NCBI GenBank assembly: GCA_937907245.1
Contig: CALCUM010000003.1
Coordinates: forward strand, 310,001-374,000
DNA length: 64,000 bases
Reading direction: 5' to 3'
Source: an uncultured Rhodobiaceae bacterium
GTDB taxonomy: Bacteria > Pseudomonadota > Alphaproteobacteria > RS24
Shown: positions 29,693 to 34,012 of the stretch, in pieces
Position numbering within the stretch: the first letter of the stretch is position 1
Layout: each line of letters begins with the position of its first letter
Position numbers and translations under genes: made by a program
The notes under the pieces: generated by a model
Told to the model about the DNA's origin: nothing
The model's database searches: none
What the model saw: only the letters and a program-made list of their open reading frames with translations

Positions 29693-29767
29693 GTGTCGAA
29701 GGACTTGCTTTTGAATCGAAAGAACACAATATCTTAACTAATCTAATCATCTACATGGAGAGTATGA

Positions 29768-30739
29768 ATGGCCCTGCCTGAAGTTTTACAAAATAATTTG
29801 CGTATCCCCGTTATCGGTTCCCCCCTATTTCTTGTGTCTGGCCCAGAGCTGGTTATTGCGCAGTGTAAAGCGGGCGTTGTTGGCTCGTTTCCAGCGTTGA
29901 ACGCACGTCCAGCCGCCGTCCTCGACGAGTGGCTAACCCGTATCACCACCGAGCTGAACGAATATAAATTAGCCAACCCAGATAAATATGTAGCGCCATT
30001 TGCGGTGAACCAAATTTGCCACGCATCTAACGATCGCCTGATGGACGATATGGCCATGTGCGTAAAGCATAAAGTGCCGATTATCATTACCAGCCTGCGC
30101 CCACCTGCAGAAGTTGTGGAAGCTGCGCATAGCTATGGCGGTTTGGTTTTCCACGATGTCATTAACGTAAAACACGCCAAAAAAGCCGCCGAACAAGGCG
30201 TCGATGGCCTTATTTTGGTCTGCGCTGGCGCCGGCGGCCATGCCGGCGCTTTGAGCCCATTTGCTTTGGTTCGCGAAGTAAAAGAATGGTTCGATGGCAC
30301 GATTTTATTATCGGGTTCCATCGGCGATGGCTATTGCGTCGCTTCGGCTTTGGCTATGGGCGCTGATTTGGCCTATATTGGCTCGCGCTTCATCGCTACC
30401 GAAGAAGCCAATGCCGACCAAGGCTATAAAGATATGCTGGTAGAATCAGCCGCCGATGACATCGTCTATTCGTCGCTCTTCACCGGCGTTGACGGCAATT
30501 ACCTCAAGCCTTCCATTGCCAAAGCCGGCATGGACCCCGACAATTTGCCAGATGCCGATAAGTCATCGATGAACTTCGGTTCGGGCGGCAACACGAAATC
30601 GAAAGCCTGGAAAGACATTTGGGGCTCGGGACAAGGCATTGGCGGCATTAAAGTCGTGCAATCCGTCGAAGATGTTGTAGCTGAGATGGAACGCGACTAT
30701 AAAGCGGCCGTAGACAGCCTCGTACAGCGCGCGTCTTGA
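29768..30739 (+). CDS. Nitronate monooxygenase
   Basis: 323-residue FMN-dependent TIM-barrel enzyme of the 2-nitropropane dioxygenase family. IPVIGSPLFLVSGPELVIAQCKAGVVGSFPALNAR forms the N-terminal strand and flavin site; the glycine-rich GAGGHAG near residue 158 and LLSGSIGDGYCVASALAMGADLAYIGSRFIAT near 180-210 bind FMN phosphate. It oxidises nitronates such as propionate-3-nitronate, or a related substrate. The next gene begins five bases after its stop. Confidence 0.92.
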   Translation: MALPEVLQNNLRIPVIGSPLFLVSGPELVIAQCKAGVVGSFPALNARPAAVLDEWLTRITTELNEYKLANPDKYVAPFAVNQICHASNDRLMDDMAMCVKHKVPIIITSLRPPAEVVEAAHSYGGLVFHDVINVKHAKKAAEQGVDGLILVCAGAGGHAGALSPFALVREVKEWFDGTILLSGSIGDGYCVASALAMGADLAYIGSRFIATEEANADQGYKDMLVESAADDIVYSSLFTGVDGNYLKPSIAKAGMDPDNLPDADKSSMNFGSGGNTKSKAWKDIWGSGQGIGGIKVVQSVEDVVAEMERDYKAAVDSLVQRAS

Positions 30740-30743
30740 GCCT

Positions 30744-31364
30744 ATGCTAGACTCCGCGCTGCGAAAATGGATGGATGCGCCGCTTAACTTGGCCGCCAAG
30801 CTATTTCCGCAGAAAGTATCTGCTAATAGTATTACTATTGTAGGTTTTTTAATTGGAGTTTTAAGTTTTATTGTAATTATTAAGGGCCAGTTCACGCTGG
30901 CCCTTATTTTTTTGGCTATAAACCGAATTTTAGACGGTCTTGATGGCGCCGTCGCGCGCCGCCATGGCACCACCGACCTAGGCGGCTATCTAGATATCAC
31001 CGCAGACTTCTTGCTATGGGCGCTTTTGCCTCTCGGCTTTGCCATTCATAGCGCCGATACGGCCTTTGCGGCGGCGGTTTTGCTGTCGAGCTTTGCCATG
31101 TCGATGACGGTATTTCTGGCCTTTGCCGTCATGGCCGAAAAACGAGGGGCCAGCACCTCAGCACAAGGCAAAAAGAGTTTGTTTTATCTAGCAGGCATTG
31201 CCGAAGGAGCCGAAACCATAGGTTTCTTCGCTTTTGTATTGGTTTTCCCGCATTATTTCATCCCAGCAGCTCTGATTTTCTCGGCCGTGGTCTATATTTC
31301 CGTACTCGGTCGCCTTATGGTCAGCATTCAGCAGTTAAAGGAACCGGAAAATGGACAAAATTGA
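30744..31364 (+). CDS. CDP-alcohol phosphatidyltransferase
   Basis: 206-residue integral membrane enzyme that transfers a phosphatidyl group from CDP-diacylglycerol to an alcohol acceptor. The family signature D-G-x2-A-R-x8-G-x3-D-x3-D reads DGLDGAVARRHGTTDLGGYLDITAD near residues 63-87. Acceptor is not evident. The gene has an AT-rich island (30816-30884) where all but the last of 23 codons end in A or T, directly followed by a perfect terminator hairpin. It overlaps the carbonic-anhydrase-like gene by 14 bases. Confidence 0.87.
   Translation: MLDSALRKWMDAPLNLAAKLFPQKVSANSITIVGFLIGVLSFIVIIKGQFTLALIFLAINRILDGLDGAVARRHGTTDLGGYLDITADFLLWALLPLGFAIHSADTAFAAAVLLSSFAMSMTVFLAFAVMAEKRGASTSAQGKKSLFYLAGIAEGAETIGFFAFVLVFPHYFIPAALIFSAVVYISVLGRLMVSIQQLKEPENGQN
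30881..30913 (+). terminator. Intrinsic terminator-like hairpin inside a coding sequence
   Basis: TAAGGGCCAG (30881-30890), loop TTCACG and CTGGCCCTTA (30897-30906) form a perfect 10-base stem followed by seven Ts (30907-30913). It lies 137 bases into the CDP-alcohol phosphatidyltransferase gene on the coding strand. Form and T-tract are those of a Rho-independent terminator; whether it works while ribosomes pass is unknown. Confidence 0.7.
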
Positions 31365-31887
31365 TCTTCATGAAAGCACCTGGGTGCATGATACAGCGCT
31401 TCTTTATGGCCATGTGCGTATGGGTGCCGAAAGTTCCGTCTGGCCCAATGTGGTGATGCGAAGCGAGCTCTATCACATTGAAATCGGCGCGCGCACCAAT
31501 ATCCAAGATTTCGTCATGGTACATGTTGGCGGCACCACGCCGACAATAGTGGGCGACGACTGTTCCATTACTCACCACGCGACGCTGCATGGCTGCACGA
31601 TTGGCAATAAATGTCTGATCGGTATCAATGCGACAATTATGGACGGCGCGAAAATCGGTAATAATTGCATCGTCGCTGGCCATAGCATTGTCACGGAGGG
31701 CAGCGAATTTCCCGATAATTCCATCATCGCGGGCGCACCCGCCAAATTGGTAAAGCAGCGCGACAATGGCGAAGCCAACGCCATGAACGCCAAGTTCTAC
31801 GTGCAAAATGCAAAAAACTACGCCAAAGGCCAACATCGCTTTAGCGACGATGACCTTCGCAGTTTTGGCTTTTTACCACCAAAATAA
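31351..31887 (+). CDS. Gamma-carbonic-anhydrase-like left-handed beta-helix protein
   Basis: 178-residue hexapeptide-repeat protein of the gamma-carbonic anhydrase/YrdA/PaaY family. The beta-helix covers about residues 10-145 with repeats such as GAESSVWPNVVMRSEL, IEIGARTNIQDFVMVH and CSITHHATLHGCTIG. The three histidines in VMVHVGG and ITHHATLHG match the metal-binding pattern. True carbonic anhydrase activity is not assured. The ATG at 31351 overlaps the upstream gene and has AAAGGA before it. Confidence 0.9.
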   Translation: MDKIDLHESTWVHDTALLYGHVRMGAESSVWPNVVMRSELYHIEIGARTNIQDFVMVHVGGTTPTIVGDDCSITHHATLHGCTIGNKCLIGINATIMDGAKIGNNCIVAGHSIVTEGSEFPDNSIIAGAPAKLVKQRDNGEANAMNAKFYVQNAKNYAKGQHRFSDDDLRSFGFLPPK

Positions 31888-33986: not shown

Positions 33987-34012
33987 AATCGCGCGCCCTA
34001 AGGCGCGCGATT
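33987..34012 (-). terminator. Hairpin terminator after the DUF4345 gene
   Basis: Perfect 11-base arms AATCGCGCGCC and GGCGCGCGATT with a four-base loop. On the minus strand the stem comes 32 bases after the DUF4345 stop and is followed by TACTTTT, a weak T-tract. It would separate this gene from the propeller gene downstream. Confidence 0.65.

Follow-up and report, generated by a model that had tools for sequence, protein, structure and literature searches.

Terminator-like hairpins at two alternative sites within a CDP-alcohol phosphatidyltransferase gene of an uncultured alphaproteobacterial genus

The locus and the element within it

The window analysed here is a stretch of 64,000 nucleotides from a 1.80-Mb genome assembled in three contigs, whose named relatives in GTDB are uncultured Rhodobiaceae and Alphaproteobacteria. 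The locus comprises genes for a beta-lactamase-like protein, nitronate monooxygenase (NMO), a CDP-alcohol phosphatidyltransferase (CDPAP, third in order) and a gamma-carbonic-anhydrase-like hexapeptide protein (Table 1). This four-gene order is common to the genus and to sister genus g6; in sister genus g4, CDPAP is present and the carbonic-anhydrase-like gene is absent at that place. Upstream of NMO (29700-29740), the motif CTTGC(C/T)TT followed about 17 nt downstream by an A/T-rich box recurred throughout the family, as judged by eye, and is likely the NMO promoter. NMO has a strong Shine-Dalgarno sequence of its own, with a duplex energy of -6.8 in the window, compared with -1.9 for CDPAP, which has no good Shine-Dalgarno sequence and starts 4 nt after the NMO stop codon. 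The same layout was found across the genus, with the CDPAP start overlapping the NMO stop or lying 4 nt past it, and with duplex energies of -1.9 to -2.8 for CDPAP compared with -6.4 to -10 for NMO. This junction suggests that CDPAP translation probably depends on reinitiation.

Table 1. Features of the NMO-CDPAP locus in window coordinates
Feature	Position	Strand	Evidence or remark
Putative NMO promoter (TTGCTT, 17 nt, AATATC)	29705..29733	+	18 upstream sequences compared
NMO gene, upstream	29768..30739	+	ORF; Pfam PF03060, E 1.2e-21
CDPAP gene, host of the putative terminator	30744..31364	+	ORF; Pfam PF01066, E 4.2e-13
Synonymous-constraint block, codons 21-57, four-species clade	30804..30914	+	Ends at T-run; segment scan
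AT-rich stretch, 23 codons	30816..30884	+	15/69 G+C
Hairpin P1, AATAGT-ATT-ACTATT core	30818..30846	+	Core invariant in clade; weak, about -7 to -8.5 kcal/mol
Counterpart of the eight-member terminator (CCGCCAATAG/CTATTGGCGG + T-run)	30820..30850	+	No strong terminator here; P1 at that site
Hairpin P2, possible	30850..30879	+	One pair U-A / U-G / C-G across clade
Hairpin P3, terminator stem-loop, -18.3 kcal/mol	30881..30906	+	Direct reading; pairing across clade
T-run TTTTTTT, seven Ts	30907..30913	+	Present in 4/4 clade members
Gamma-carbonic-anhydrase-like hexapeptide gene, overlapping CDPAP end	31351..31887	+	ORF; Pfam PF00132, E 9.5e-17

Within CDPAP lies an AT-rich stretch in which 22 of the 23 codons end in A or T, the sole exception being AAG, and which contains several rare codons (e.g., GGA). 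Its final four bases overlap the stem of hairpin P3, a perfect 10-bp stem formed by TAAGGGCCAG (30881-30890) and CTGGCCCTTA (30897-30906) around the six-base loop TTCACG (30891-30896). With 11 pairs counted, six of them G-C, a short loop and seven directly adjoining Ts, P3 has the sequence of an intrinsic terminator. A preliminary description had reported the 23 AT-rich codons, the stem, the loop and the T-run, and all of these were confirmed base for base. The segment from 30816 to 30920 had an RNA folding z-score of -4.2.

We surveyed 454 kb of the same genome (403 genes, called with a simple in-house gene caller). Defined by a G+C content this low and no more than one G/C-ending codon per 23 codons, the AT-rich stretch was the only one of its kind among 129,766 stretches of this length. 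The called genes contained eight sense terminator-like sites; three of the sites other than P3 lay within 10 nt of a called start, and these starts are probably misplaced. P3 was the only sense terminator of -18 kcal/mol or stronger located more than 100 nt inside a coding sequence.

Three further features were seen in this genome. A long-range pairing was predicted between GACUCC at the CDPAP start (30747-30755) and GGAGUUU in the AT-rich stretch (30855-30866) in G000 (the window genome) and two relatives (G005 and G001); on these predictions it may hide the CDPAP start region, or may be due to chance. A strong perfect palindrome, AATCGCGCGCCCTAAGGCGCGCGATT, occupies intergenic positions 33987-34012, and two genes with the same EF-Tu-like N-terminus occur in the one genome (G000:C3:100394-101584 and 116807-117997).

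Terminators and synonymous constraint across the genus

We compared the locus in 12 members of the genus (13 rows) and seven relatives from two sister genera; the genomes are few and mostly metagenome-assembled, and the contig of G004 begins at codon 23. In G009 the whole locus is present twice, as diverged copies on separate contigs (C19 and C80; L037 and L039); this genome is probably a mixed metagenome bin. A strong intrinsic terminator sequence was present within CDPAP in all 12 genus members, with energies of -14.4 to -18.3 kcal/mol and positions between codons 25 and 58, at one of two alternative sites. Four of the 12 have it at the P3 site, namely G000, G005, G001 and G004, and the latter three carry the AT-rich stretch as well as P3. 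NMO is 97.5-98% identical in the two other members of this clade where it was read. The remaining eight have it about 60 nt upstream of P3, where a perfect terminator, CCGCCAATAG-CATCA-CTATTGGCGG-TTTTTT with variants, occupies codons 26-36; its sequence is unrelated to P3, and it is homologous in place to the weak hairpin P1. The hairpins of both clades fall within the codons for the first membrane helix. In a tree of NMO and CDPAP, the two terminator types form sister clades, so that either an ancestral upstream site may have weakened and been replaced by the downstream one, or each may have arisen once. A strong terminator in CDPAP was found in none of the seven relatives, and it counts against the terminator reading that these sister genera do without one despite the shared gene order.

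Pairing was preserved in both clades. All 11 pairs of P3 form in every sequence of the four-species clade; two species have U-A and two have G-C as the outer pair, through the substitutions I46M and I55L, and one further change from C-G to U-G keeps the pairing. All nine counted pairs of the other terminator form in the eight sequences, with A-U changed to C-G in three. The count of covarying pairs was reached by 409 of 500 and 216 of 500 shuffles in the two clades; most pairs are invariant in so few sequences (four and eight), so that covariation is thin and the pair counts carry little weight by themselves.

Synonymous sites elsewhere in CDPAP differ widely within the four-species clade, and codons 27-57 are nearly frozen. 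The fraction of identical codons among same-residue pairs was 0.88 for codons 21-57 vs 0.52 elsewhere in this clade, and 0.82 for codons 8-36 vs 0.56 elsewhere in the eight-species clade; in 20,000 random draws of codon columns, no set reached either fraction. An unsupervised segment scan returned a single block per clade (codons 21-57 in the four species and 11-37 in the eight), each stopping at the T-run of its own clade, and none of 300 permutations, which treat codons as independent, scored as high in either clade. The same scan found no constrained segment in the sister genera (176 of 300 permutations as high). Among 170 orthologous genes compared between G000 and G005, the segment ranked among the top four, beside ribosomal protein L11-like and NusG-like genes. 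Codon bias was rejected as an explanation of the constraint, as the stretch uses rare codons. The preliminary description had proposed weighing retention of the stem and T-run in close relatives against synonymous drift; both were kept in all four clade members while other synonymous sites diverged, which favours function. At the T-run of the eight-species clade, Leu is encoded by TTA in six of the seven rows with Leu there vs 18 of 239 Leu codons elsewhere. This clade also shows weaker synonymous conservation (0.70-0.80) in a second patch, at codons 117-139 (window 31092-31160), which may be a promoter or a signal serving the gene downstream.

A partial terminator and its alternatives

The reading we favour, and think probable, is that CDPAP contains a maintained partial intrinsic terminator, which would end the NMO mRNA there, be overridden by a reinitiating ribosome and set the output of the two downstream genes. 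Retention across the genus at two nearby places suggests that selection keeps the terminator as a dimmer switch between neighbouring genes. NMO and CDPAP leave no room between them, which would explain a terminator inside the downstream ORF, where selection on synonymous sites would maintain it. A polymerase leaving NMO would meet the hairpin 174 nt beyond the stop codon of that gene. Without reinitiation at the CDPAP start, the hairpin would fold and some transcripts would end as NMO-only mRNA; if a ribosome is close behind, the hairpin could not fold, and CDPAP and the carbonic-anhydrase-like gene would be transcribed. The terminator would thereby determine how strongly the two downstream genes are expressed relative to NMO. 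Intrinsic terminators are blocked by a closely following ribosome (PMC5021804), and it is this effect, together with the weak-initiation junction, that leads us to favour a partial terminator gated by translation. Termination in the cell, its gating by translation and the direction of the effect are inferred.

In both clades the constraint extends 60-90 nt upstream of the stem, which a bare terminator does not need and which counts against it; chiefly for this reason, readings as a small RNA or a structured attenuator stay alive. Rho and Hfq are both encoded in this genome, so that other means of polarity are available and a small RNA is still to be considered. The preliminary description had offered either a translation-coupled attenuator governing CDPAP and the carbonic-anhydrase-like gene relative to NMO, or a small RNA of the upstream mRNA with its 3' end at this point. 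The conserved stem and T-run, the terminator of the sister clade and a junction layout that fits translation gating bear this out in part, and sequence alone does not separate the two options.

The main rival, which we regard as unlikely, is a small RNA whose body corresponds to the block under constraint. Such an RNA would be either internal to the ORF or derived from the 3' end of the NMO mRNA, would finish at the terminator and would act on other RNAs, probably together with Hfq; its 3' end would be generated by termination within CDPAP. The constrained block has the size of a small RNA (80-110 nt) and stops at the T-run, and Hfq is encoded in this genome. The four-species clade has a U-rich sequence followed by a moderate stem and seven Ts, and terminators of Hfq-binding small RNAs have seven or more Ts (PMC5558911), but the eight-species clade is without the U-rich stretch and has mostly five or six Ts. 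Wobble positions are conserved in both clades in the manner of the ORF-internal small RNA FtsO of E. coli (PMC7815308); however, almost no body sequence is common to the two clades, which argues against a common seed, codons 1-5 are not conserved in the eight-species clade, so that no conserved promoter is evident there, and no Rfam family matched at threshold. It is also conceivable, if doubtful, that in the four-species clade the whole P1/P2/P3 block is a new structured regulatory RNA in membrane-protein codons, which drew the codons of the first membrane helix toward Ile, Phe and Val and took the place of an older terminator in CDPAP.

A true attenuator that switches between structures in response to a ligand, a protein or ribosome position appears improbable; the structures would be P1, P2 and P3 in the four-species clade, and hairpin A with the terminator in the eight-species clade. 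It would suit such an attenuator that the constraint in each clade reaches beyond the terminator on its upstream side, that the P1 and P2 pairs are kept in the four-species clade, and that a GC hairpin, CCGCCGC-TCAAT-GCGGCGG, precedes the terminator of the eight-species clade and is invariant or nearly so there. A pairing of GGCGGGGAUU with AAUCUCCGCC in the nascent RNA, in competition with the terminator stem, was predicted for G011 and G009b but not for G008, G010 or G006, so that no antiterminator is conserved; a conserved trp-like antiterminator in the eight-species clade was rejected, being predicted in some members only. No Rfam riboswitch or leader matched above threshold. The Rfam resemblances found were below the gathering thresholds (L20_leader, 24.4 vs 58.7; DapZ, 20.6 vs 56; ncS54, 19.6 vs 43; suhB/mmgR, 16.4 vs 41) and reflect A+T-rich sequence plus a terminator, and membership of a known RNA family was rejected.

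Selection of the hairpin for translation, for example through ribosome pausing as the first membrane helix emerges, with no termination of transcription, is very improbable: both hairpins lie in the codons for that helix and the AT-rich stretch has rare codons, but pausing needs no T-run, and yet both hairpins have one, the constraint stops there and Leu TTA is enriched at it.

Chance combined with incomplete divergence, or with recent transfer of this segment between members of the four-species clade, is equally remote. Synonymous-codon shuffles of all genes gave 2.4 sense sites when every accepted strength was counted, and about 0.1 sites of P3 strength per 454 kb (two in 20 shuffles); P3 alone could thus be an accident occurring once per few genomes. 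The clade comprises only four close genomes, and half of the stem (GGC CAG TTC ACG) is ordinary codon choice for GQFT, found also in an Ffh-like gene of the relatives. Against this, CDPAP of the eight other genus members holds a different terminator with the same pattern of constraint, the differences within the segment preserve pairs, and the permutation tests speak against it. When synonymous codons of the window CDPAP were resampled, a hairpin as strong as P3 arose in four of 40,000 draws; resampling across each clade, with the proteins kept, gave about 1e-4 (four-species clade, -18 kcal/mol or stronger) and 2.5e-4 to 6e-4 (other clade, -15 or stronger). On these comparisons, chance is excluded by conservation and not by hairpin strength.

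Several other candidates were rejected. The element is single-copy in the genome and is neither a repeat nor a mobile element. Palindromic repeat elements of the Rickettsia type, inserted in coding sequences, occur in multiple genomic copies and add residues to the protein; the element is single-copy and the CDPAP protein aligns without gaps with its relatives. Matches of 19-20 nt to the stem in seven genomes are GQFTL codons in the Ffh-like gene rather than relocated copies. A CtrA-type TTAA-N7-TTAA site in the AT-rich stretch was discarded, the spacing being 8 and the second half-site not kept, as was a promoter within the stretch, where no conserved pair of boxes was seen by eye.

Relation to known systems

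Intrinsic terminators within coding sequences are commonly seen as accidents that are avoided or are unmasked under stress. Ribosome-mediated attenuators of the pyrBI/trp type place an intrinsic terminator before the genes they control, with its use set by the position of the ribosome. The putative partial terminator in CDPAP resembles them in being an intrinsic terminator that precedes controlled genes and whose proposed use depends on the ribosome; it differs in having no separate leader peptide, in lying inside a controlled gene after a co-transcribed first gene, and in that no conserved, mutually exclusive antiterminator was found.

ORF-internal intrinsic terminators in E. coli rsxC and narY and in a pyrL reporter were revealed by uncoupling of translation (Elgamal et al. 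2016, PMC5021804). The likeness to rsxC and narY lies in a hairpin and U-run within a translated ORF that would act or not according to whether a ribosome follows RNA polymerase. The rsxC and narY sites are predicted genome features that were unmasked by ribosome stalling at polyproline motifs (PMC5021804), whereas the CDPAP site, just past an operon junction of poor initiation, is synonymously constrained and occurs in 12 of 12 genus members at two alternative places. FtsO, an ORF-internal small RNA, was shown to be a sponge with a partner (Adams et al. 2021, PMC7815308). Wobble positions are more conserved over a short stretch of coding sequence in both cases; unlike FtsO, the CDPAP element is known from its sequence and differs between clades, the common feature being the terminator.

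The CDPAP terminator appears to be kept throughout the genus while its site shifts, and synonymous constraint stops at the end of each T-run. Blocks of synonymous constraint ending at a T-run offer a route by which such sites may be sought from sequence. If the reading is true, compact genomes can place an operon's internal stop signal within the next gene, whose protein sequence has adjusted to it.
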